Source: a virus
Strand: one strand, 5' to 3'
Length of the DNA stretch: 50,614 nt
Virus record (IMG/VR): IMGVR_UViG_3300010885_040388
Coordinates: 1-50,614 of that record
Each line of letters opens with the position of its first letter. Position 1 is the first letter of the stretch. Under the pieces are notes generated by a model. The model searched no databases. It was not told the origin of the DNA and saw nothing but the letters and a program-made list of their open reading frames with translations. Position numbers and translations under genes: made by a program. Shown here one piece after another: positions 32,734 through 50,614 of the stretch.

Positions 32734-34836
32734 ATTAAAAAGTTATTGAGAGTAGCATTGGTTTTATCCCTTGCTCTATTTCCCCTGCTTTTAATAATTG
32801 ATAAAGCCCACGCAGCAGAAGGTTTGACTGCTCAAGTATATAACGTGCTGGGACAAAATGGCGCTCCTTACATACCGCAGGGAGCCTCCCCAGTAGTAAC
32901 TACAAATGTATCCAACATTAACTTTCAGTGGGGTAGTGGTAGTGTCCTTGGGGGCCCTTCAGAAGATGTGATTGTAAGATTTACTGGGTCTATTCGTAGT
33001 AACACAACTCAAGATATATCATTTTTAGCAACAGCAGATGATGGAACTAAGCTTTATCTTGATGGAGTTTTAATAACAAGTGACTGGCGAGATAAAGGTG
33101 GTGGAGGAACAACTTCTTCTCCAGTAGCATTTACAGCAGGAATACCAAAAACTATAGAGTTAATGTACTACGAGAATGGTGGCGGTGCTTGGGTTCAACT
33201 ATTATGGAATCAGTCTGGGTCAATGCAAGTTATTCCAGCAGAAGCCTTTACCTCACAAGCAGCACCAGTAGTAAAAACAATAGGACCTCCAAGAAATTTA
33301 ACAATAATTAGCGGAGAAACCTCAACAATATTAAATTGGGAAGCACCCGACACTGGTAACACACAACCAGAAAGATATGCAATAAGTTTTAATTGTTCTG
33401 GATGTAATGGTTGGGGAATTGCTACTGGAAATGTTGGCGGACCAAACTCTTTAAATACAACAATTACAATTGATCATTCCTTGCTAAATGGACTTATGCC
33501 AGCAGGAACAGTCTGGTCATTTCACATTAGATCAGATAACGATACCTTTGCCCTTTACTCTGCAAATTCAAATGTTGTTACTGGTTCTACATATGTAGCC
33601 CCTGCTCCAGAGCCTTCACCTACTCCGACTCCTACTCCCTCTGAAACAGCAACCGTAACAACACCAGCACCTGAAACAACAACAGTTACAACACCTAGCG
33701 AAACTACAACAGTAACAACACCTACGCCCAGTGAAACATCAACAGTGACAATACCAACTGGACCAACTGAAGCAGAAATTGCAGCATCTGTTGCAGCCCA
33801 ATTAGCAGCACAGCAAGCAGAAGCAGCAAGAATACAGGCTGAGACAGCAGCATTAATTGCACAGCAAGCAGCAGCCGCTCAAGCAGAAGCAGAAAGAATT
33901 GCAGCACTTCAAGCAGCACAAGAAGCAGAAAGAATTAAGGCAGAAGCAGAGGCTAAGGCAGAGGCTGATCGTATAGAAGCAGAGATTGAAGCAGCGAGAA
34001 TACAAGCAGAGATAGAGGCCAAGGCAGAAGAAGATCGCATTGCAGCAGAAATTAAAGCAGCAGAAGAAAAAGCAGAAGCAGAGGCTAAGGCAGAGGCTGA
34101 TCGTATAGAAGCAGAGCGTATAGCGGAAGAAGAAAGAGCGATTGCCGAAGCAGAAGCAGAGGCTGAGCGTATAGCAGCAGAAGAAGAGGCCATTGCAAAA
34201 GCAAAGGCAGAAGCAGAGGCTGAAGCCCTTGCAGAAGAAAAAAGAATTGCTGAAGAAGCCAAAGCAAAAGAATTAGAAGAAGAAAAGGCTGCGGAAGAAG
34301 AAGCAAAAGCAGAAGAAAAAGAATTAAAAGAAATAATTGAAGATGCTAAAGATGGTAAAGAATTAACTAAAGAACAAAAAGAAATTGTAGTAGCAGCATT
34401 AATAGAAGACCTTAAGCCAGGAGAATCTATTTCTGCAGCAGAGGTCCAAGCATCTGGAGTTTCATATGCAGACCTTCCACCAGAAACCCCCATTGAACTT
34501 AGAACATCTGAGTCTGGCGAGGTGTTAATAATTACAGCAGAGGTTGCAGCAAATGTAGAATTGGTTCAAGATCCAGGAGCGTTATTAAACGCGGTATTTA
34601 CTGATCCAGGCGCAGCACTTGCAGCCTTTGGGAGTATTGGTGCAGACATGACTGAAGGAGAAAGAGAAGAGGCAACAGATATGGTTGTAGCAACAGTTGT
34701 GGCAACAGGAGCAGCGATTAATGCAGCAGCAGTTGCATCAGCAGGAGGAGCAGCAGGAGGCTCTGGTGGTGGAGGAAATTCTGGTGGAAGTTCAGGCAGC
34801 AATTCACCAGGTTCAAGAGGAGGAAGAAAATGGTAA
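32734..34836 (+). CDS. Secreted PA14-domain surface protein, proposed AUU start
   Basis: About 700 residues. AAGGAG (32722-32727) is exactly 6 bases before ATT at 32734; starting there gives the signal peptide (M)KKLLRVALVLSLALFPLLL with cleavage after AHA. The only other early start, TTG at 32746, is 18 bases from the site and loses the basic KK. Then come a PA14-like lectin domain (FLATADDGTKLYLDG, TIELMYYENGGGAW), a fibronectin-III-like domain, a Pro/Thr linker, a long Ala/Glu coiled coil, a conserved-looking C-domain, a hydrophobic stretch (VVATVVATGAAINAAAVASA) and a Gly/Ser tail ending RGGRKW. It looks like a type I surface protein binding sugars. It overlaps the next membrane protein gene. 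Confidence 0.75.
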   Translation: MKKLLRVALVLSLALFPLLLIIDKAHAAEGLTAQVYNVLGQNGAPYIPQGASPVVTTNVSNINFQWGSGSVLGGPSEDVIVRFTGSIRSNTTQDISFLATADDGTKLYLDGVLITSDWRDKGGGGTTSSPVAFTAGIPKTIELMYYENGGGAWVQLLWNQSGSMQVIPAEAFTSQAAPVVKTIGPPRNLTIISGETSTILNWEAPDTGNTQPERYAISFNCSGCNGWGIATGNVGGPNSLNTTITIDHSLLNGLMPAGTVWSFHIRSDNDTFALYSANSNVVTGSTYVAPAPEPSPTPTPTPSETATVTTPAPETTTVTTPSETTTVTTPTPSETSTVTIPTGPTEAEIAASVAAQLAAQQAEAARIQAETAALIAQQAAAAQAEAERIAALQAAQEAERIKAEAEAKAEADRIEAEIEAARIQAEIEAKAEEDRIAAEIKAAEEKAEAEAKAEADRIEAERIAEEERAIAEAEAEAERIAAEEEAIAKAKAEAEAEALAEEKRIAEEAKAKELEEEKAAEEEAKAEEKELKEIIEDAKDGKELTKEQKEIVVAALIEDLKPGESISAAEVQASGVSYADLPPETPIELRTSESGEVLIITAEVAANVELVQDPGALLNAVFTDPGAALAAFGSIGADMTEGEREEATDMVVATVVATGAAINAAAVASAGGAAGGSGGGGNSGGSSGSNSPGSRGGRKW
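33940..33984 (+). repeat. 45-base direct repeat, copy 1
   Basis: Identical to 34072-34116, offset 132 bases (44 codons, in frame), within the coiled-coil part of the PA14 protein. Confidence 0.85.
34072..34116 (+). repeat. 45-base direct repeat, copy 2
   Basis: Second exact copy of 33940-33984. Recombination between copies would shorten the coil by 44 residues without a frameshift. Confidence 0.85.
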
Positions 34837-35018
34837 GAATAGTAAAAAATATAATGAAAGACCTAGTAGATCAGGCATGGACTCTTCTTGGAATGTTTAT
34901 TGCCTGGGTTGTTCTGGACGGTAGCGCAAAGACTATTGTTGGTTATGGAATTATAGCCACTACCACACTTTGGATACTAACTAGTCCTATTAGAAATAAA
35001 GAATATGGAGATGAATAA
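34830..35018 (+). CDS. Small two-helix membrane protein (62 aa)
   Basis: ATG overlaps the PA14 gene stop. Two hydrophobic segments (AWTLLGMFIAWVVLD and VGYGIIATTTLWILT) with a charged tail. It ends in a TAATG junction with the next membrane protein. The pair may be holin/antiholin-like or may anchor the surface protein; the sequence does not decide. Confidence 0.65.
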   Translation: MVRIVKNIMKDLVDQAWTLLGMFIAWVVLDGSAKTIVGYGIIATTTLWILTSPIRNKEYGDE

Positions 35019-35302
35019 TGGCAGTTAAAAAAGTAGTAGAGGCTCCTAAAAAAGAGCACCCACAAAAAGCAATAACCAATATTTTAATGAGAATTATAGC
35101 AGTCTTCGCCGCTTCTGGCTTATCAGTACTTGGTGCTGGAGCAGTAGTAGGAATTGACACTATTCAGGCAGTGATGCTTGCAGGGCTACTTGGCGTAGCC
35201 ACTGTTATTGAAAGGTTGGCAAGAGCTTTTTTGGACGATGGAAAACTCACATTGGCAGAAATCAATGATGCGTTTAAAACGGTAGACAAAAAGGCTAATT
35301 AG
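35018..35302 (+). CDS. Holin-like two-helix membrane protein (94 aa)
   Basis: Basic N-terminus (VKKVVEAPKKEHPQKA), two transmembrane helices (IIAVFAASGLSVLGAGAVVG and AVMLAGLLGVATVIERLA), and a charged C-terminus. Size and layout fit phage holins, which perforate the membrane to release endolysin, but the endolysin lies 2.5 kb away and a second candidate pair is at 45068-45518. Confidence 0.55.
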   Translation: MAVKKVVEAPKKEHPQKAITNILMRIIAVFAASGLSVLGAGAVVGIDTIQAVMLAGLLGVATVIERLARAFLDDGKLTLAEINDAFKTVDKKAN

Positions 35303-35319: not shown

Positions 35320-35349
35320 TTGACACCCCTTCCTAGCCAATGGTATACT
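35320..35349 (+). promoter_or_regulatory. Strong promoter with palindromic -10
   Basis: TTGACA (35320-35325), 18-base spacer, TATACT (35344-35349), extended TGG. The -10 is half of the perfect palindrome TATACTTAAGTATA (35344-35357), which would let a dimeric protein cover the start region. It drives the HslV-like gene. Confidence 0.75.
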
Positions 35350-35379: not shown

Positions 35380-35904
35380 ATGACCTGTATTGTTGTGTTA
35401 AAGCATGAAGATAAAATCTACATGGCTGGAGATCGTGGTGCCTCAGATGATGGAACTATATTAGCACTTGATGCTCCAAAGGTTTGGAAGATAGGCCCTT
35501 ATCTCATTGGGTATGCTGGATCAATGGACGGAGAAAGAATCCGTTATAACTTTAAACCAACACCCCCAAACATTAAAGATACTGATAAGTTTATGCAGAC
35601 TAGGTTTATCAAAGAGCTTCGTGAATTTTATAATGAGTTCTGGGTTGATACATCTAAAGATGGAGACCTTGGTTTAATTATTGCTATTCGTGGTGAGATA
35701 TATGAGCATAGTTCTGCTGATATGTCTTTATCTAAGTATACCCTGCCATATTTGTCTATGGGTTCTGGAGCTGAGTATGCTTATGGAGTTTTGTATGCAA
35801 CAGATAAGCAAAAGAATGCAAGAAACCGTGTAGTATCTGCGGTATCTGCAGCAATTAGATTTAGCCCATCCTGCATGGGTCCAGTAGATGTGGTTAGTTT
35901 ATAA
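35380..35904 (+). CDS. HslV/proteasome beta-like Ntn hydrolase
   Basis: 174 residues. After Met removal the protein starts TCIVVL, and the three residues of the threonine peptidase site fall at family numbering: T1, D17 (MAGDRG) and K33 (APKVWKI). Also seen are the family glycine strand IGYAGSMDGE and the SMGSGAEYAYG loop equivalent to the GSG segment. HslV and proteasome beta subunits use the free N-terminal threonine to cut peptides inside a ring. The size equals bacterial HslV (about 175). No HslU or other AAA+ partner is in the window, so it may use a host unfoldase, act alone or have another amide substrate. GGAAGGGG ribosome site. It couples to an oxygenase gene (TAATG). Confidence 0.75.
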   Translation: MTCIVVLKHEDKIYMAGDRGASDDGTILALDAPKVWKIGPYLIGYAGSMDGERIRYNFKPTPPNIKDTDKFMQTRFIKELREFYNEFWVDTSKDGDLGLIIAIRGEIYEHSSADMSLSKYTLPYLSMGSGAEYAYGVLYATDKQKNARNRVVSAVSAAIRFSPSCMGPVDVVSL

Positions 35905-36494
35905 TGATAAGTTTAGAGCTTCTTGATCAATGTGGATTTATAGATGTTGAAAAACTTGAGGATAACATATTTTATATTCCAAATTTTTTATCTAAGGATG
36001 AGTTAGAGATATTTACTAACATTATAGATAAGACTTCAGAAGAAGACTGGACAAAGTTAAACAACTTTCAATCTTTAGACTGGAATAACAAGTTTTATGA
36101 CTACAACAATGAACACATAGCAGCTATGGCTAGAGATAAATTTAATAAACTTTTATTTCTTATACCAGGTTCTATAATTCATGGCCTAGGTAGAATTCTT
36201 AGACAGCGCCCTGAAGATAATATGAATGCTCATATAGATGAAACATATGATGCTTTTAATAATTTAAATAAAGATTACGCAACTGTTATTTATTTAAATG
36301 ATGATTATGAAGGTGGAGAACTGTCATTTGTAAACCTTAATATAAAAATTAAACCATCTTCTGGCTCACTAATGATATTTAAAACTGGAGAAAAATATCT
36401 TCATGAAGTAAAAACTGTAAGTGGAGATAAGGTTCGTTATTGTTTACCTACATGGATACTTTCTATACCAGTTGACAAAGAATTAATTGTTTAG
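35904..36494 (+). CDS. 2-oxoglutarate/Fe(II) oxygenase (prolyl 4-hydroxylase-like)
   Basis: 196 residues. The double-stranded beta-helix core carries the iron triad H110-x-D112 (AHIDE) and H167 (YLHEVK), with R178 (KVRY) for 2-oxoglutarate. The family stretch YLNDDYEGGELSF lies between. It hydroxylates an unknown protein, sugar or nucleotide. It starts inside the HslV-like stop (TAATG). A second oxygenase of the same type is at 38668. Confidence 0.82.
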   Translation: MISLELLDQCGFIDVEKLEDNIFYIPNFLSKDELEIFTNIIDKTSEEDWTKLNNFQSLDWNNKFYDYNNEHIAAMARDKFNKLLFLIPGSIIHGLGRILRQRPEDNMNAHIDETYDAFNNLNKDYATVIYLNDDYEGGELSFVNLNIKIKPSSGSLMIFKTGEKYLHEVKTVSGDKVRYCLPTWILSIPVDKELIV

Positions 36495-36506: not shown

Positions 36507-36728
36507 ATGAGCGATGAATTTGATGAAATTTTAAAGGACATTCAAAACAAAGAATCAGACTTTAATGAGTTTGATATCTGGATTGAAAATGGAATTGATA
36601 GGGGATGGATAACAGAACCATTCTGCAATACCCATGATGGAGATTCCTACATGACTGAAGAAGAAATGAAAGAATGGGAAGAAGGCGGAGATCCCTGCCA
36701 AGTAGTGTTTAAAATAAAAGAATCATAG
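36507..36728 (+). CDS. Acidic hypothetical protein (73 aa), leaderless
   Basis: Very acidic (DEFDEILKDIQNKESDFNEF, EEEMKEWEEGGDP). The start codon coincides with the predicted transcription start. Found just before the tRNA pair. Small acidic phage proteins can be inhibitors or DNA mimics, but nothing specific is visible. Confidence 0.65.
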   Translation: MSDEFDEILKDIQNKESDFNEFDIWIENGIDRGWITEPFCNTHDGDSYMTEEEMKEWEEGGDPCQVVFKIKES

Positions 36729-36738
36729 TAAGAGGTTT

Positions 36739-36811
36739 TGGTCTGTAGCTCAGCTGGCAGAGCGGGGCACTGTTAATGCCCATGTCGCAAGTTCAAATCT
36801 TGCCAGACCAG
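36739..36811 (+). tRNA. tRNA-Asn (GTT)
   Basis: Full cloverleaf: acceptor TGGTCTG/CAGACCA (7 pairs), D stem GCTC/GAGC with GG in the loop, anticodon stem GGGCA/TGCCC with loop CTGTTAA (anticodon GTT at 36772-36774), T stem GCAAG/CTTGC with loop TTCAAAT, and G73 as in bacterial tRNA-Asn. CCA is not encoded. Confidence 0.95.
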
Positions 36812-36815
36812 CAGT

Positions 36816-36889
36816 GCGGATATTGCATAGTGATAGTGCGTAACCTTGCCAAGGTTAATGTGCGGGTTTGATTCCCGCTATTCGCTCCA
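36816..36889 (+). tRNA. tRNA-Gly (GCC) with altered elbow
   Basis: Acceptor GCGGATA/TATTCGC (one G-U), D stem GCAT/GTGC, anticodon stem TAACC/GGTTA with loop TTGCCAA (anticodon GCC at 36848-36850), T stem GCGGG/CCCGC, U73 and encoded CCA. The D loop AGTGATA lacks the G18-G19 pair and the T loop is TTTGATT, with U at 56. It lies 4 bases after tRNA-Asn. Confidence 0.88.
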
Positions 36890-36958: not shown

Positions 36959-37372
36959 ATGGTAACAACAATGATGGATCTATTCAATGATCCTTTTTTT
37001 ATTGGATTCAATAGGGATCTAGGTCGCTTAAATAGCGCACACAAAACAAACTCGCAATCATATCCTCCATATGATCTTCTTAAACTAGATGAAGATACAT
37101 ATAGAATTACCCTTGCAATTGCAGGGTTTTCAAAAGAAGATATTGATGTCTCAGTAGATAATGGAACACTTATTATTAAGGGTGAGATTACAGATGTAAC
37201 TGATGCTGAGGTAGTTCACAAGGGCATTGCAAGCCGTAAATTTGTAAGATCGTTTGCTCTTGGTGAATACATGGAAGTGACTGGAGCTGAACTTAAGGAC
37301 GGTATGTTAAATATAAATATTGATCGCATTGTCCCTGAAGAAAAAAAGCCTAAGTCAATTAAAATCAAGTAG
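36959..37372 (+). CDS. Hsp20 / IbpA-type small heat shock protein
   Basis: 137 residues. N-terminal region with Phe/Leu (LFNDPFFIGFNRDLGRL), alpha-crystallin domain (YRITLAIAGFSKEDIDVSV, AELKDGMLNINI) and a C-terminal IxI motif (KSIKIK) used for oligomer assembly. It holds unfolding proteins without ATP. Small heat shock proteins are known in several phage groups and may protect virion assembly. Ribosome site AAAGGGG. Confidence 0.9.
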   Translation: MVTTMMDLFNDPFFIGFNRDLGRLNSAHKTNSQSYPPYDLLKLDEDTYRITLAIAGFSKEDIDVSVDNGTLIIKGEITDVTDAEVVHKGIASRKFVRSFALGEYMEVTGAELKDGMLNINIDRIVPEEKKPKSIKIK

Positions 37373-38468: not shown

Positions 38469-38668
38469 TGGACTCAACCAAAAGGACCCTACTTAAAACA
38501 TTAAGCTGGGAAACATTTCACTTGGTTGGTGTTGCTGGTGTAATCTATCTGTTTACTGGTGAATGGGAGTATGCAAGCCTTGGCGCTCTTATTTACATTG
38601 GATGGGAAGCGCTTGGCTATTTCTTGCATGAAAGAGTATGGGCTAAATTTGGGAAAAAAATAAAGTAA
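38468..38668 (+). CDS. DUF2061-like membrane protein (66 aa)
   Basis: Starts in TAATG overlap with the endolysin. KTLSWETFHLVGVAGVIYLF, a second helix (LGALIYIGWEALGYF) and the ending LHERVWAKFG match DUF2061, a small membrane family of unknown role. Coupling to the endolysin makes a lysis accessory role possible. Confidence 0.75.
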   Translation: MDSTKRTLLKTLSWETFHLVGVAGVIYLFTGEWEYASLGALIYIGWEALGYFLHERVWAKFGKKIK

Positions 38669-39288
38669 TGTATATAAACTCATTTCCAATAAATCCGACA
38701 TACGTTGTTGGAGGGGCTATAGCTGTTTATGAGGGTGTCTGGACGGATCACGAAAAAACAATTAGTGAAGTTTTAGAGCTTACTTCTGACATTGATTCAA
38801 ATGTTAGATTTATTCCATCACAGACAAATGGAGATATGCAGTCTGGAAGCGGTACTGTTCAGTCAATTAGGACAAGTTCTGGGTTATATATAACAAAGGC
38901 TGCAAGATCTAATGAAGTATTTAGACAAATAAACAATAGATCCTATGAGTTAATATCTTCAGCAGTGCATAACTATAAAGGTATGTTCAAAATAGAGGCA
39001 GACATTAAAGACGTTGAGCCTTACAGTCTTTTAAAATATTCTAGCGGAGAAGAGTATAAGTATCACTATGACGGAGATACTGAAAGCAAGAGAAGTATTT
39101 CTGTTTTAATATATTTAAATGATGACTATACTGGTGGTGAAATTGAGTTCCCTAACTTTAAGATAAAAATTAAACCTAAAGCTGGAACACTAATGCTTTT
39201 CCCATCAAACTATGCATATGGACATATTGCTCATCCAGTAGAATCTGGAACCAAATATGCCATAGTTACATTTCTCCAGGATAGGTAA
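38668..39288 (+). CDS. Second 2-oxoglutarate/Fe(II) oxygenase (prolyl 4-hydroxylase-like)
   Basis: 206 residues. Iron ligands H133-x-D135 (YHYDGD) and H189 (IAHPVESG), with K196 (TKYAIV) in place of the usual Arg/Lys for 2-oxoglutarate. The core YLNDDYTGGEIEFP is nearly the same as in the 35904 gene, but the N-terminal halves differ, so they likely act on different substrates. Coupled by TAATG to the DUF2061 gene. Confidence 0.82.
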   Translation: MYINSFPINPTYVVGGAIAVYEGVWTDHEKTISEVLELTSDIDSNVRFIPSQTNGDMQSGSGTVQSIRTSSGLYITKAARSNEVFRQINNRSYELISSAVHNYKGMFKIEADIKDVEPYSLLKYSSGEEYKYHYDGDTESKRSISVLIYLNDDYTGGEIEFPNFKIKIKPKAGTLMLFPSNYAYGHIAHPVESGTKYAIVTFLQDR

Positions 39289-40903: not shown

Positions 40904-41653
40904 ATGCCATATAAGGTTGGAGCCAAAGGCTCTTATGGATGTTCAGGATACCCTGCTGTAAAAGAGGGTGGAGAAGTAATGGGATGCCATAAGACAGCAA
41001 AAGAAGCTGCAGGACAGATTTATGCTATTAACCGTTCTGAAGGAAATATAGGTAAAGCTATGACTTCTTTTAAAGAGGGCGATTTCGTTATTGTTTCTTG
41101 TGAAGATGAAATACATGTTGGTCGTGTTGAATATGTAATGACTACTGGCGCTTCAGGAATTCCTGGATCTGAATATTATCTTGAAACATCACCAGATAAG
41201 CCAGCACTGGTTGTAAGAACTTTAGAATTTGAGTCAGACGGACAGTACTGGGAAGAAACAATGTATTTGGTTTCAGTTGCTGCAGAAGAAGCAACAAAAA
41301 TTGCACCATTGCCATTAGATGCAGAAGCAATGATTGTTGATGGACAACTAGTTGCAGAACCAGATACAGTGCCATCTATGGATGCATACGATAATGCAGT
41401 TGGTAAAGCAGAAAAACCAAACTATGCAGAAATAATTAAACCAAGATCTGGTGGATCAAAACCTTCAAATCCAAAGTTGTATGCAGCAGTAGTTCAAGCA
41501 GCAAAAGATAAGTTTGATGTTTATCCTTCTGCCGTTGCAAATGCTTGGGTTGTGCAAGAATACAAGCGTCGTGGTGGAACCTATAGTTCTGAAAAATCAA
41601 TTAGTTTAGATCTTTGGAGTGGGAAGTTTGATCCAAGAAAGTTTAATAAATAA
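40904..41653 (+). CDS. Hypothetical phage protein with N-terminal Cys/His motif (249 aa)
   Basis: Residues 8-45 carry KGSYGCSGYPAVKEGG, then VMGCHKTAKEAAGQIYAI, a pattern I associate with actinophage proteins near the capsid protease, though no protease domain is present here. A beta-barrel-like middle (EGDFVIVSCEDEIHVGRVEY) and a helical C-terminus (LYAAVVQAAKDKFDVYPSAV) follow. It may be virion-associated. It couples to the next gene by TAATG. Confidence 0.55.
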   Translation: MPYKVGAKGSYGCSGYPAVKEGGEVMGCHKTAKEAAGQIYAINRSEGNIGKAMTSFKEGDFVIVSCEDEIHVGRVEYVMTTGASGIPGSEYYLETSPDKPALVVRTLEFESDGQYWEETMYLVSVAAEEATKIAPLPLDAEAMIVDGQLVAEPDTVPSMDAYDNAVGKAEKPNYAEIIKPRSGGSKPSNPKLYAAVVQAAKDKFDVYPSAVANAWVVQEYKRRGGTYSSEKSISLDLWSGKFDPRKFNK

Positions 41654-42976: not shown

Positions 42977-43264
42977 ATGGAGCAACACTTATGGAAAGAT
43001 AAAAGTGCTTGTTTTGGCTCAGATACAAACTTATTTTTTGACAGGTATGAGGACGATGAGCTTATTAGACCAATGATAGACAGCCTATGCCAATCATGTC
43101 CAGTTCAAAAAATATGTTTTGCTAACGGTGTATCTAGCAAAGAGTGGGGTGTCTGGGGTGGTATATACTTAGAGAATGGTGAAATATCACGGGAGTTTGG
43201 TAAGCACAGGACAAAAGAAAAATGGGGTGAGATGTGGAAATCTCTAACAACGGAGAAGACGTAA
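42977..43264 (+). CDS. whiB: WhiB-family iron-sulfur transcription regulator
   Basis: 95 residues with the four cluster cysteines C12, C38, C41, C47 (CQSCPVQKIC) and the GVWGG turn at 58-62, then a basic C-terminus (GKHRTKEKWG). WhiB proteins occur only in actinobacteria and their phages; they bind a 4Fe-4S cluster and the main sigma factor. A phage copy probably redirects host transcription or excludes other phages, as reported for mycobacteriophage TM4 WhiB. Weak ribosome site. Confidence 0.92.
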   Translation: MEQHLWKDKSACFGSDTNLFFDRYEDDELIRPMIDSLCQSCPVQKICFANGVSSKEWGVWGGIYLENGEISREFGKHRTKEKWGEMWKSLTTEKT

Positions 43265-45581: not shown

Positions 45582-46268
45582 ATGTCAAATACAGCTTTAA
45601 TAATGTGTACCTATATAAGGTTGGAAAACCTTAAGCTTACTTTGGGCTGCATAAACAATCAAACAGATAAAGACTTTGATTTTTATATTGTTGATAATTC
45701 AAATCAAAATGAAAGACTTTTGCGCTATTTAGATAAGTATGGTGGTGGTTTAAATATATCAATTAATGAATACAAAAATGATTTTAAACAGTTTGCTAGA
45801 TTTTTGTTAGCAAGAGATCTTGCTGAACAAGGGTATGAAAAAATAATATTTATTGATGATGATGAAATTATTCCAAACACTTTTATAGAAGAATGTCATA
45901 AACAATATGAGCCTAATGTAGTAAAATCTTTTTGGGCACACCGAATTAATGCAAGATATAAAAGAAAGATTAAGATTGTCGGCGATGAACTAGGCAACTA
46001 TGCTGGAACTGGTGGACTTATTTGTGAGTCTAAGCTGTTTTTAAATGAGGACTTCTTTGATTGCCCTGAAGAGTACTGGATTATTGACGATCTCTGGTTA
46101 TCTTATTATATATTAAAGTTTACAGACTATAAAATTAAAGAGCTTAGAACATACATTAAATTTAGAAATGATCAAAAAGCAACCTTCATGACTCTTGGAA
46201 ATTTAAAACAAAAATTCTCAGAAGAGTTTATCCTTCCAGAATCCGAAGGTATTGATTCTTTAGAATAG
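45582..46268 (+). CDS. Glycosyltransferase family 2-like
   Basis: 228 residues. GT-A fold: ALIMCTYIRLENLKLTL, FYIVDNSNQNE, and the metal site FIDDDE (D92-D94), then WIIDDLWLSYY. It transfers a sugar from a nucleotide-sugar to an acceptor, probably wall or capsular polysaccharide or a virion glycan. It is convergent with the next operon and the two 3' ends overlap by 41 bases. Confidence 0.82.
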   Translation: MSNTALIMCTYIRLENLKLTLGCINNQTDKDFDFYIVDNSNQNERLLRYLDKYGGGLNISINEYKNDFKQFARFLLARDLAEQGYEKIIFIDDDEIIPNTFIEECHKQYEPNVVKSFWAHRINARYKRKIKIVGDELGNYAGTGGLICESKLFLNEDFFDCPEEYWIIDDLWLSYYILKFTDYKIKELRTYIKFRNDQKATFMTLGNLKQKFSEEFILPESEGIDSLE

Positions 46269-47259
46269 ATGGATCAAAGTTTTCAAACCCAATAGTTGCA
46301 GCTTTTTCTTTTTCTGCTTTTTTATCACTGTTAACATAGTTATCAATTCTTTTAGCAAGCTCTTTGGGATCAGCCTCATATACATCTAATTTAACTCTTG
46401 TCATAAGTGTGTTTATTTTTCTTGAAGGAATTAGCCAATCGTTTGGAAGAATTTCATTATTTGGTGATATGTCAGTCATAAAGACTGGTAGACCACTCAT
46501 AAGCGCCTCATTCATTGGCAAGCATAAGCCAGCATATCTTCTTGGAAGAACCATAGCGTCAAAGCCCTCATACATTGAAGACCTGCTATCATTATCGCTT
46601 ATGTCAATAGTAAGTCTGGGATCTTTGCAATTAACTTTAAGTTCCGTTTGACTTCTAACAACTAACTCATAGTCAGCTGTTGAATGCTCAAGCATATCAA
46701 TAACAGTTTGAGTGCCATTCCTATCCTGAGAAGCTGCCTTGCCACCAATATGAAGAATTCTTTTATGATCTTTTCCAAGATTATTATCTCTTACAGAAGC
46801 AAACTCAGATGAGTCAATCGGCGGCGGTAAATGAATAACATTGGTATCATTACTAAACTTACTAATAACCTCATCTATCTTCCAATAACTAGGGGCAATC
46901 ATATAGGTTGGCAAAGGCATATCTGGTCTATTTAAATGATCAAGAAACTCATAGTTATACTGCATCAACGTTTTAACGTTACGTCTCTGTGAAAGGTGAA
47001 TAAAATGTGGATGGTAAAAGGTTTCGCATGTAAGTACAGAATTTAGTCCATCCATAAATCTAGAAACCTCTTGTTTAGTTGGAAAACCATCTGTCATTAT
47101 TACGTTATAGCCATCATACCACTCAGGATATTGTTTATTATTGTTGAAGCTTGAGGAATTAATTAAAAGAATCTTATCTGGATTTAGCATTTTAACCAGA
47201 TCTCTTGTCTGATTGCCCAATCCACTATTATCACATCTTGCAATTATTCCAAATGTCAC
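46228..47259 (-). CDS. GT-B glycosyltransferase (GT4-like)
   Basis: About 343 residues. Starts FGIIARCDNSGLGNQT, the sugar-nucleotide loop of GT4 enzymes; the C-domain has RILHIGGKAASQDRNG and PRRYAGLCLPMNEALMSGLP with the family's E-x7-E type site. The GTG at 47259 makes a 4-base GTGA overlap with the upstream gene; ATG at 47274 is the alternative. Last gene of the minus-strand operon. Confidence 0.8.
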   Translation of the reverse strand: MTFGIIARCDNSGLGNQTRDLVKMLNPDKILLINSSSFNNNKQYPEWYDGYNVIMTDGFPTKQEVSRFMDGLNSVLTCETFYHPHFIHLSQRRNVKTLMQYNYEFLDHLNRPDMPLPTYMIAPSYWKIDEVISKFSNDTNVIHLPPPIDSSEFASVRDNNLGKDHKRILHIGGKAASQDRNGTQTVIDMLEHSTADYELVVRSQTELKVNCKDPRLTIDISDNDSRSSMYEGFDAMVLPRRYAGLCLPMNEALMSGLPVFMTDISPNNEILPNDWLIPSRKINTLMTRVKLDVYEADPKELAKRIDNYVNSDKKAEKEKAATIGFENFDPSILKNQYLRILEG

Positions 47260-48017
47260 TCTGTATATCCCCAAGTATCATCATCCTGTGTAAACTTTCT
47301 TGTACCATCACGACCATCTAAATGATAAGATCGTTTTATATTTCCTTCAGGATGATAGATCCAAAGTTTATGTGTGTCCCAACCTTCCTGACTAAAACTA
47401 TCGTAAGGAAAAATATCATCTTGAACCTTACCGTGAAATCTATCTTCAATAAAACTTATTGGTTTACAGAAAGGTAAGACAACATCTTTATAATATTTTA
47501 CAGTACTTAAGTGAGGTCTTTGACTCCATTGAGATGTTTTCATGAAGCCATCTTCAAGTCCAAGCATTAAATGATTATGTGGTTCTGGTATTGTTGCTTC
47601 ATGATGAAAACGAATTGTGTTAGCCCGTTTTTGTTCAATAAGATCAATACACCTTTCCCAATCAATCGGCACATCTGGTGTTAATGGAGCATCACCCTCA
47701 ACATAAATCATAAGTGGTGTTTGGATTTCATCAATAGTATTACGCATCATTGTGGTTTGATGACTATGTTTGTCAAAGATTATTGGCAATACATTTTTAT
47801 ACTCATGTAAACATTTCCAAAGAATTCTATTCTTGTACTCATCATAATCTGGTTTCCTGTGTGTTTGTTCTTTTCTTAAACCATCAATTTGTATAATGAT
47901 TTCATTTTCTGGAAAGTGTACCCTAATAGACTTAATGGTTTCATCTATCATTTCAGTATTTGGATGGGCTGGTATTATAGATGTTGCAAGTATAATTGTT
48001 ATATCTTTTTTATTCAT
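47256..48017 (-). CDS. GT-A glycosyltransferase-like protein
   Basis: 253 residues. ITIILATSIIPAHPNTEMID opens a GT-A-like fold, with an IQIDG turn and YVEGDAP in the place of the DxD metal site. The C-terminal half is rich in His and aromatic residues. It overlaps the exostosin-like gene upstream by 8 bases. Acceptor unknown. Confidence 0.7.
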   Translation of the reverse strand: MNKKDITIILATSIIPAHPNTEMIDETIKSIRVHFPENEIIIQIDGLRKEQTHRKPDYDEYKNRILWKCLHEYKNVLPIIFDKHSHQTTMMRNTIDEIQTPLMIYVEGDAPLTPDVPIDWERCIDLIEQKRANTIRFHHEATIPEPHNHLMLGLEDGFMKTSQWSQRPHLSTVKYYKDVVLPFCKPISFIEDRFHGKVQDDIFPYDSFSQEGWDTHKLWIYHPEGNIKRSYHLDGRDGTRKFTQDDDTWGYTE

Positions 48018-48858
48018 TCACTTGCCTCATAATCTTAATGCCTAAGTCTCTCTTATATTTAATCCACCAGGATACTACAGTATGCATATTTTCAGGGTAA
48101 TTATTTAACAACTCTGGAACTAGCTCATGTAGCTCAGACCAATCAGTAACACTTCTAACAGGTATATCATAGCCAAATACATCTTGATAGAAATTTCTAC
48201 TATTTCCCTTAGAGTCTACACTATCTGAAATTGGCAGGCATAGCATCTCTATAGCCTCAAAGAATCTAAAGGTGTCAATCGTTGCGGCCCCAGCAGGCGC
48301 AGGAGCGATCTTAGCACTGGACAAGGACTTATAGTAGTCTTTAGGTTCTCCGCCCTGTGCAAAGCCTGCTGTAAGGGTAAAAAGGGCATTTGGCATGTCT
48401 GGCATAACCTTTGCTATCTGTTGTCTTCTTGGATGTGTTATTTGACCACTAAAATATACTTCATAGTCTTTTGACGGATAATCTGGTACCAACTTCTTTA
48501 GATGTTGTGGAACACCTATTGGTAGTTTATTTAAATGTTTGTGTTGTTCATAGGGGTATTGAACCCATATCTCAGCATTAGGATGATTAATCTTTGTTAT
48601 ATCAAAACTACCTTGCTCATCTCCATTAATAAATAAAACAAGCCTTGATATATTTTGTATTTCTTTATTAATATATTTTTCATGTCCAAGATTTTGTGGT
48701 CCAGGAACAATAACAAAAGCACGTTCTTCTTTTGGCAAAGATGTAACTTTAATTTCTTCTATATCATACTTAGTAAAAATTTCTTTTAATAGGCCATAGT
48801 CCCACTTATCGGCAGCACAATCATTTTTATTAAAAGAAAGAAGATATGCTTTTATCAT
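48010..48858 (-). CDS. Exostosin-like (GT47-type) glycosyltransferase
   Basis: 282 residues. YFSGQITHPRRQQ, then DYYKSLSSAKIAPAPAG and FRFFEAIEMLCLPI follow the C-terminal exostosin pattern. It would add a sugar to the same glycan as its neighbours. It overlaps the fusion gene upstream by ATGA. Confidence 0.75.
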   Translation of the reverse strand: MIKAYLLSFNKNDCAADKWDYGLLKEIFTKYDIEEIKVTSLPKEERAFVIVPGPQNLGHEKYINKEIQNISRLVLFINGDEQGSFDITKINHPNAEIWVQYPYEQHKHLNKLPIGVPQHLKKLVPDYPSKDYEVYFSGQITHPRRQQIAKVMPDMPNALFTLTAGFAQGGEPKDYYKSLSSAKIAPAPAGAATIDTFRFFEAIEMLCLPISDSVDSKGNSRNFYQDVFGYDIPVRSVTDWSELHELVPELLNNYPENMHTVVSWWIKYKRDLGIKIMRQVNE

Positions 48859-50018
48859 TTTGTAGCCCTAACAAACATCCATTTAGGATGCATATGATCT
48901 GTAAAGATTAAGTTTTTAAATCCTACATCACTTAATATTCTGTTAATTTCAAACCTTGATGTTTGATAAGAGTATGCAGAATTCTCTTCTCCAACAACAA
49001 ACTGAAAGAATAAAATACCACCAACTTTTAATTTTTCACAAGCAAGTTTTATATATTTAATTTTTTCTTGGTGGTCAATATGCTGAAAGACTAGAATTGA
49101 GTACACAAGATCAAGATTGTCTGCAAGTTCTTGATACTTTATATTATCTTTCTTAGGTGCAAGCTTAATCATTTCATCAGATATGTCTATTCCGTAAAAG
49201 TTGCATTCATTATATTTCTCTGCAAGAGGAACGAGCAGCCTTCCTAATCCACATCCAATTTCTAAAACATTATTCCAATTACTATTGCTGTCCTCTATAA
49301 GAGTTAAAAATTTTTCACTAGGTGCCCATTCATCTGCAATATATTTATACTTTACATCTACATCTTTTGCAGCATTGTCCCAAAAAACCTTAGCATGATC
49401 TAATATTGAAACTTCCCATACTTCTTCTTCTACAATAAGTTGTGCAAATAATTCTTCATCTATGCAAGATGGATCGCTTGCGTATTTTATTTGTGAATCA
49501 TATTTTTTTATTGCATCAATTTTGTTTTTTGTAAAATTGGTGTTAGTTTTTTTTAAACCACAAAGTGATGTAAAAATTTTTAATCTTGTTTCATATAAAT
49601 CCTGATATGACAATTTATATGGCAACTCAGCATATACAAAATATTTTTTATCAAAATGCTTCATTAAATTAAATAAAGTATCTGATAAAAATACGTGGTC
49701 TGGATGATGAATTCCTAGTGGAATATATATATTATCAAAATCTACAATTATACTTTTTATCCAATTTATTAAATCATCTTCATTTTGTTTTCCATAAACA
49801 TCATCTAATAGATCTCCATTAATAACTTTAGCATTTACCATAGAACAGGCTTCGTCATGTTCTTTTCTTAATGTAGTGTGTTTTTTATATCCAGCATCAT
49901 CTGTTGGTATGCCAGCAAATGCAGATGCAATTGTAAAATCATCACTACTATCAAGGATGTAATCTCCTAAAGAAAAAATTCCATCATCTGTATGTGAACA
50001 AAATATAAGACTACTCAT
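48855..50018 (-). CDS. PIG-L/LmbE-type deacetylase fused to SAM methyltransferase
   Basis: 387 residues from the ATG at 50018, which overlaps the upstream stop by 8 bases (an upstream TTG at 50048 is less likely). Residues 1-160: PIG-L fold with zinc ligands H9, D12 (CSHTDDG) and H105-x-x-H108 (HHPDH), normally removing acetyl groups from GlcNAc. Residues about 225-387: Rossmann methyltransferase with VLEIGCGLGR and FYGIDIS. One chain could deacetylate and then methylate a sugar. Within a five-gene glycan operon. Confidence 0.82.
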   Translation of the reverse strand: MSSLIFCSHTDDGIFSLGDYILDSSDDFTIASAFAGIPTDDAGYKKHTTLRKEHDEACSMVNAKVINGDLLDDVYGKQNEDDLINWIKSIIVDFDNIYIPLGIHHPDHVFLSDTLFNLMKHFDKKYFVYAELPYKLSYQDLYETRLKIFTSLCGLKKTNTNFTKNKIDAIKKYDSQIKYASDPSCIDEELFAQLIVEEEVWEVSILDHAKVFWDNAAKDVDVKYKYIADEWAPSEKFLTLIEDSNSNWNNVLEIGCGLGRLLVPLAEKYNECNFYGIDISDEMIKLAPKKDNIKYQELADNLDLVYSILVFQHIDHQEKIKYIKLACEKLKVGGILFFQFVVGEENSAYSYQTSRFEINRILSDVGFKNLIFTDHMHPKWMFVRATK

Positions 50019-50614
50019 AGAACAAATGAACTTCGTGTTGGTAATCAAGCAATTTTTCTTTATATCCTAAATTTTTTATCCATTGTCTAAGATTATATAA
50101 GGATTCATCCCATTGCTGTAACATAAATTCAGGGTGTCCAGATAGCCAAATCTTAGGCTTATACTGTTTAAGGACACTCTCAGCCCCTCCTAGGACCCTC
50201 CATTCGCTACCCTCTACGTCTAATGAAATGGCGGTAGGTGGCTTAATACCGTGATCATATACACAAGAATCTATAGTAATTTGACCATATGAATCACCTT
50301 CAAGGTATAATTCTTTAAATCCATGTGCTGCTTCAATAACGTCATCAGCCTCTGGAGGCCATTCATTATAATAAATTCTTGCAAGCTCATTTACTTTATC
50401 AGAAGCAAATCCAGGAATGCATGCCATTGGAAGTTCTAAGTTATTTGATTTCCAAGTTTGTGGAAGGTGTGACCATACTTTAGGATTAGGTTCAAACAAT
50501 ACAACTTCTGCTCCCCACATTTGACAAAGCGCTGGAAACTCACCTTCTTCTGCACCAACATAATAAACAACATCGCCCTTACCAATGTTATTGTGCATTG
50601 ATTTAAGCCTTAAC
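50011..50614 (-). CDS. FkbM-type methyltransferase (5' end outside window)
   Basis: Open to the right edge: five more codons lie upstream of the ATG at 50598 with no stop, so the start is uncertain. VVYYVGAEEGEFPAL is the SAM loop, VVLFEPNP the acidic strand and SLDVEGSEWRVL the FkbM signature. It methylates a sugar hydroxyl or similar. First gene seen of the minus-strand glycan operon. Confidence 0.82.
   Translation of the reverse strand, partial: LRLKSMHNNIGKGDVVYYVGAEEGEFPALCQMWGAEVVLFEPNPKVWSHLPQTWKSNNLELPMACIPGFASDKVNELARIYYNEWPPEADDVIEAAHGFKELYLEGDSYGQITIDSCVYDHGIKPPTAISLDVEGSEWRVLGGAESVLKQYKPKIWLSGHPEFMLQQWDESLYNLRQWIKNLGYKEKLLDYQHEVHLFYE

Follow-up and report, generated by a model that had tools for sequence, protein, structure and literature searches.

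The stretch of DNA analysed here, called the window throughout, is a viral record of 50,614 bases. On its plus strand, positions 35380..35904 hold a gene for a proteasome-like N-terminal threonine hydrolase of PHROG 1040, group I-like and 174 aa long. The gene opens with ATG-ACC and its product with M-T-C-I-V; the ORF caller finds no in-frame start between the preceding stop codon and this ATG, so the hydrolase has no propeptide. As an initial annotation of this DNA had proposed, removal of the start methionine would put the residues of a threonine peptidase site at their canonical numbers: T1 (Thr2 codon, 35383..35385), D17 (Asp18 codon, 35431..35433) and K33 (Lys34 codon, 35479..35481), all on the plus strand. 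The GSG-type loop of that annotation is there too, in the motif MGSGAEYA; its serine (Ser129 codon, 35764..35766, plus strand) becomes S128 after Met removal and corresponds to the canonical S129, and G46, also numbered after Met removal, lies in a G-Y-A-G loop. G46 and S128 were equated with the oxyanion and GSG loops by eye, against the motifs of BPH and HslV.

Gene neighbourhood

A promoter-like sequence lies just upstream (35320..35349, plus strand): TTGACA-18-TATACT with TG before the -10 element, scoring 11 of 12 positions. The view that this is the best promoter of the region stands in part. An upstream element of at least 10 of 12 is present in 60/60 distinct upstream regions (95 loci), against 77/2000 random 90-nt windows of this sequence, the relatives not being independent of one another; however, the score is tied with that of a site at 36472, and the region is not enriched in promoter-like sites (8, against 9.9 in shuffles). 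The proposed coupling to a prolyl-hydroxylase-like gene is local. In the window, the stop codon of the hydrolase overlaps the start (TAATG) of a 2OG-Fe(II) oxygenase gene (35904..36494, plus strand; PF13640, 48.7 bits), but such a gene lies directly downstream in just 3/91 relatives with room for it (3/94 with a looser room criterion), and the coupling was rejected as a key to function. A second 2OG-Fe(II) oxygenase gene, at 38668-39288, lies within 3 kb of the first; each query matches in 13/97 relatives' loci, the queries cross-matching each other's gene and the loci varying in length.

The constant downstream neighbour in the phage clade is a gene for a 73-aa protein (36507..36728, plus strand), found in all 88 loci with enough sequence. 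The reverse search gives the same picture: 79 of the 80 loci fetched with the 73-aa gene (the best 80 of 246) carry the hydrolase, which lies within 1 kb upstream in 61 of the 74 loci with room and 1.1-1.6 kb upstream in 12 of the remaining 13, the last (L330) having none. Neither Pfam nor PHROG gives a match for the 73-aa protein at E<=1, and the window's copy matches no phage record at E<=0.01. Its family has an invariant Cys40, His43 and Cys64; the AlphaFold2 (AF2) model (pLDDT 59.9, pTM 0.31) is too poor to interpret. Constancy alone does not single this gene out as a partner, because a 62-aa ORF upstream of the hydrolase (34830..35018, plus strand) is as constant, lying within 2.5 kb in 63/64 loci with room, and because the relatives are close kin: the loci in which neighbours were counted are the top scorers of more extensive sets (80 of 583 for the hydrolase, 80 of 246 for the 73-aa gene, plus 17 others).

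Between the 62-aa ORF and the promoter-like sequence lies the gene for a small membrane protein, possibly a holin (35018..35302, plus strand), which matches a holin PHROG at 9.6e-4 and a nuclease-labelled PHROG better, at 2.5e-25; it is upstream of the hydrolase in 54/83 relatives with room. A CHAP endolysin gene follows within 4.5 kb downstream in 57/67, and the hydrolase gene thus sits beside lysis genes. An Hsp20 small heat-shock gene also lies near the hydrolase, at 36959-37372 in the window, and another near the Rhizobium etli plasmid homologue L089. It was set aside as a partner, since it occurs within 3.5 kb downstream in just 27/72 relatives with room.

No gene for an ATPase partner was found near the hydrolase in the surroundings of the window, in agreement with the initial annotation. 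Eight related phage records, which may be fragments, likewise contain no AAA_2 match and no AAA match over the cut-off, with two of the eight matching AAA under it. Across the wider family, the neighbours of the gene at 94 loci, 1170 ORFs in all, were clustered; the largest groups are TerL (12 loci), portal (11), HNH (10), DNA methylase (7) and integrase (6), followed by two groups of 4, the Pfam names coming from one representative for each of the first five groups. The recurrence of TerL, portal and HNH is the signal of a phage module, not of a partner.

Family and predicted fold

The hydrolase matches Pfam Proteasome (PF00227) at 25.0 bits, above the gathering cut-off of 22.4, and PHROG 1040, named 'peptidase HslV family', at E 1.6e-20 over residues 1-173. 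PHROG 1040 is the sole PHROG match at E<=0.001 for all 76/76 alignment rows. PF00227 is matched at this threshold by 12 of the 76, which marks the branch as divergent. The hydrolase is not HslV proper, its score against the HslV model TIGR03692 being 19.6 bits with a curated cut-off of 157.75, and it stays below the cut-offs for a 20S proteasome beta subunit as well (28.3 against 224 bits for TIGR03634, 18.3 against 191.9 for TIGR03690). Among PDB sequences, the profile finds BPH first (5ovu, 1.7e-10), then HslV (3.1e-8) and then 20S beta.

AlphaFold2, run on the 76-row alignment, predicts the fold with a pLDDT of 94.6 and a pTM of 0.90. The elements, named after PMC8665760, run S1-S6, H1, H2, S7-S10, H3, H4, S11, with helices at 50-57 (H1), 68-86 (H2), 131-140 (H3) and 147-161 (H4): the S1-S11 sheet core and flanking helix pairs of an Ntn fold. 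Foldseek against the PDB places BPH of T. denitrificans first (5ovs, E 7.9e-12, TM 0.80), followed by HslV; in VIA-align the two are tied, at Z 20.6, rmsd 2.6 and 163 aligned residues for HslV 6kr1 and Z 20.2, rmsd 2.4 and 165 aligned for BPH 5ovt. A structure without the Ntn fold would have spoken against the proposed family; the predicted one agrees with BPH and HslV along its entire length. The Foldseek viral library contains many relatives from phages, some of which carry the name HslV or proteasome, including two from Gordonia phages.

That the hydrolase has a proteasome-like fold and belongs to this family is close to certain, as the initial annotation had it. By its sequence, the product of 35380-35904 is a genuine proteasome-family protein, with a putative T1/D17/K33 site that agrees far beyond chance.

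Conservation of the active site

IMG/VR contains 583 matching stretches that encode a relative of the hydrolase. The relatives analysed were taken from IMG/VR, from named phages and plasmids and from bacterial genomes, giving 250 loci plus the window, and all of them, the window included, have the family match. The T, D and K residues are all present in 247/251 homologues, counted in untrimmed frames since N-termini set with a Thr-requiring motif make Thr counts circular; the other four do not cover the site. Homologues lacking T1 or K33 would have told against the assignment, and among the 251 none that covers the site is without T, D or K. The four exceptions are the Rhizobium loci L182-L185, in which the best open frame is without the N-terminal part and the family match is split over two frames; they are apparently broken, possibly frameshifted, copies.

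Within the alignment of 96 rows (91 representatives at <80% identity, two close relatives and three rows from named phages), D18, K34 and G44 never vary. The two glycines of the G-S-G loop are kept in 95 and 94 of the 96, and the position between them holds Ser in 20 rows and Cys in 63. The position equivalent to D166 of 20S beta, a column assigned by eye, is Ser in the window protein and in 70/96 rows, so the extended active site differs from that of 20S beta. The Thr-requiring motif mis-set the start of L209, L210 and L233, of which L209 is among the 96 rows; L145 (short), L223 (long) and L248 (containing residues given as unknown) were left out of the representatives. For the Moorella phage copy, GenBank places the start 42 bases further downstream than the MT start used here.

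The hydrolase gene is under strongly purifying selection: against the window, dN/dS in the close clade ranges from 0.022 to 0.180 with a median of 0.059 (96/97 comparisons usable, the 97th being with the identical L001). L135 and L136 are two family matches within one viral locus, possibly tandem copies.

A quick-method tree of 101 rows unites the window clade (5 rows, SH-aLRT 100) on a long stem. This unity is the one feature of the tree used here; its root and the placing of its reference rows are to be ignored, since the references are poor: L252 ('20S beta') and L253 ('HslV') come from the wrong frame, and L251, L254 and L257 have very long branches. There is a hint, at support 88, that L149 may be the sister of the window clade.

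The virus and its presumed host

The TerL protein of the window is 52% identical to those of Streptomyces phages over its full length. A 49-kb stretch of Karimac, a Streptomyces phage of the Stanwilliamsviridae, was compared with 20 proteins of the window; 11 have a match there at E<=1e-3, and their order is kept: a tail protein, a small protein, DnaB helicase, primase, SSB, PolIII alpha (48%), RecA (48%), an exonuclease, RuvC, the gene before TerL, and TerL (51%), named as in the Karimac annotation. At the same threshold, this stretch of Karimac has no match to the hydrolase, the 2OG oxygenase, the 73-aa protein, Hsp20, CHAP or the holin-like protein. On the TerL identity, the collinear replication genes and a WhiB protein the virus is classed as Stanwilliamsviridae-like.

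A WhiB-family regulator is encoded at 42977-43264 (PF02467, 42.3 bits). WhiB proteins are typical of Actinomycetota, and their presence in a phage points to a host from that phylum. A distant member of the 73-aa family, from L150, has a counterpart in Mycobacterium phage Aminay, with matches to two of its records. Together with the TerL identity and the collinearity with Karimac, these gene matches indicate that the phage very probably infects Actinomycetota. No prophage host was found among 396 Actinomycetota genomes, since the sole genome to match the window hydrolase (at 34%) was the Actinoplanes genome used as a centre.

The 89,966-base contig L001 (IMGVR_UViG_3300009159_000050) is identical to the window (100%) in the 14 tested genes around the hydrolase, and probably represents the same phage more completely.

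Known phage and bacterial homologues

The suggestion that the hydrolase might be new was overstated: it belongs to PHROG 1040, a family name that the annotations of many GenBank phages carry, and PMC8665760 had reported members from phages in 2021. PHROG 1040 covers proteins of T5-like Epseptimavirus and of Vibrio, Aeromonas, Psychrobacter, Geobacillus and Moorella phages, and its named-phage rows have the MT start and the T/D/K site as in the window. GenBank phages in which the name is 'peptidase HslV family' or 'protease' include Arthrobacter phages Pitbull and Hum25. Among the matches listed of 155 records, identity to named phages is at most 33.5% over at least three quarters of the hydrolase and up to 38.9% over half of it. 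By sequence comparison, the window clade, which stands apart within PHROG 1040, is a divergent actinophage branch of an already known phage family. Elsewhere, PMC7823757 and PMC7289586 report, respectively, an HslV without HslU in a Salmonella jumbo phage and a 'proteasome-like' protein in Alteromonas phage V22. The open-access literature searched yielded no function for any phage proteasome homologue.

Fuchs, Alva and Lupas (2021; PMC8665760) describe 22 new proteasome homologues, PPH and AAH among them in phages, and report neither AAA+ partners nor telling contexts for the new homologues. Like the window hydrolase, PPH is a phage gene product, group I-like and without a propeptide. It has ~140 residues and no helix H2, whereas the window hydrolase has 174 aa and a predicted H2 at 68-86, and an identity with PPH is thereby ruled out. 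Aligned at full length with hhalign, the hydrolase matches the alignment of bacterial relatives (which also includes a Vibrio phage row) at E 1.3e-35; in another alignment its identity to the bacterial rows is 23-30%. The bacterial relatives include ones from alpha-proteobacteria, Streptomyces, Frankia, Actinoplanes and Paenibacillus (80/96 kept); their taxonomic spread agrees with that given for AAH in PMC8665760, but is biased by the seeds of the scan, which were Streptomyces, Rhizobium and Paraburkholderia plasmid proteins. Membership of the window hydrolase in AAH is possible. An Actinobacteria-specific phage with AAH was not found according to the same paper; if the window clade counts as AAH, it would be such a case and would bear on that statement.

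Of the characterised relatives, BPH (5ovs, 5ovt, 5ovu) is the nearest, ranking top by Foldseek and by sequence profile. Its active-site T1, D17, Lys, Gly and Ser all have counterparts in the window hydrolase, to which it is 18-24% identical. BPH has a sevenfold double ring and a long acidic H2-S7 pore loop; in the model of the window hydrolase this loop (87-97, FWVDTSKDGDL) has ~11 residues, exceeding a tight turn and falling below the length described for BPH. According to PMC5777263, BPH has its start Met removed, binds epoxomicin at Thr1 and is without a known AAA+ partner. It showed no activity on standard peptides or casein and could not stand in for missing E. coli proteases; the authors allow for a cofactor yet to be identified. 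Even for BPH, therefore, activity and action without a cofactor are both unproven. HslV (ClpQ) shares the fold, with a Z of about 20, and T1/D17/K33 with the window hydrolase, which nevertheless falls far below the HslV cut-off.

A possible mode of action

The reading we prefer, with a probability of about 0.6, is that the gene encodes a self-compartmentalising protease without a dedicated unfoldase, related to the branch that comprises HslV, BPH, AAH and PPH (called 'group I' by Fuchs et al. 2021). By analogy with BPH, the host methionine aminopeptidase would remove the start Met and expose Thr1. The subunits would assemble into a double ring like those of HslV and BPH, enclosing the active sites, where K33 and D17 would activate Thr1 for cleavage. 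Unfolded or specially delivered polypeptides could then enter the chamber without a dedicated unfoldase and be cut by Thr1, and in the infected cell the hydrolase would remove or process certain proteins of the host or the phage. The parts of this reading differ in strength. The protein is very likely an active threonine hydrolase; it is probably a ring protease, and with similar likelihood it acts without a dedicated unfoldase. The difference in the extended active site suggested by the serine at the D166 equivalent (assigned by eye) counts against this reading, as do the inertness of BPH in the assays above and the consideration that an unfoldase could lie elsewhere, the phage records being possibly fragments, and that host unfoldases besides HslU exist.

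The last point leads to the use of a host unfoldase, raised in the initial annotation: the phage would supply a peptidase chamber for an AAA+ unfoldase of the host (HslU, or else ClpX, ClpC or Mpa), which by docking it would redirect to new substrates. The fold, equally close to HslV and BPH, would allow this, and every one of the 149 Actinomycetota genomes has AAA+ proteins hit by the HslU model at E<=0.001. None of the 149 reaches the cut-off, which 5/14 controls pass, so use of a host HslU is unlikely in the presumed host phylum; judging by their frames of ~430 aa, we read the weak matches as mostly ClpX. We know of no binding of ClpX, ClpC or Mpa to HslV-type rings, and we regard docking on any host unfoldase as quite improbable. 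Still less can be said for a role in prohead or capsid maturation, another of the earlier suggestions. The gene does lie 4.5 kb after TerL in the window, and in diverse relatives it can be near TerL, portal or HNH genes (12, 11 and 10 of 94 loci), but a related phage whose hydrolase is 92% identical (G404) has a separate head maturation protease (phrog_9427, 3e-106) adjoining its portal gene, which makes such a role highly unlikely. G402 and G403, both of which may be fragments, have no match to that protease.

Equally far-fetched is a non-catalytic decoy or regulator, for example one that mixes into the proteasome or Clp ring of the host and poisons it: a target can exist, as 69/149 Actinomycetota genomes encode PF00227 proteins, but conservation of T, D and K (247/251, four not covered) would be needless for a decoy. 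A specialised non-degradative Ntn enzyme, that is, a site-specific protease, ligase or amidase acting in the manner of connectase on one partner, possibly the 73-aa neighbour, is unlikely but deserves more weight. It would fit the constancy of the 73-aa gene (88/88, and 79/80 in reverse), the changed D166 site, the divergence and long stem of the clade, and the inertness of BPH on standard substrates according to PMC5777263. Against it, the two-helical S3-S4 insertion of connectase is absent from the model, in which S3 spans 20-23 and S4 26-29, and connectase is without the first helix pair, which the window hydrolase is predicted to have (H1 50-57, H2 68-86); moreover, constant neighbours may reflect synteny of close phages, the 62-aa ORF being as constant (63/64).

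The preferred self-compartmentalising protease can be extended, though with low probability, to a phage-specific two-gene system of the actinophage clade for ATP-independent degradation, with the 73-aa neighbour as substrate adaptor, gate or cognate substrate; if true, it would remodel the proteome of a host without HslUV. The fold and family are already catalogued and the finding is otherwise ordinary, but 583 IMG/VR stretches, a conserved site, purifying selection and a constant neighbour make this a clean place to ask what the enzyme does for a phage.

Other features of the window

Adjacent tRNA-Asn and tRNA-Gly genes occupy 36739-36889. Upstream of the hydrolase, 32746-34836 encodes a 696-aa protein with a PA14 domain, a long Ala/Glu-rich stretch and, by eye, a signal-peptide-like N-terminus; it varies among relatives. 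The N-terminal 74 residues of a 249-aa protein at 40904-41653 resemble the corresponding end of a PHROG for head maturation proteases (phrog_80, 9.9e-4). The region 45582-50598, mostly on the minus strand, contains a Glycosyltransferase family 2 match above the Pfam cut-off at 45582, weaker glycosyltransferase-like matches under the cut-off at 46231 and 48013, a methyltransferase with a PIG-L-like N-terminus (PIG-L below cut-off) and an FkbM methyltransferase; these genes possibly serve glycan or surface modification.
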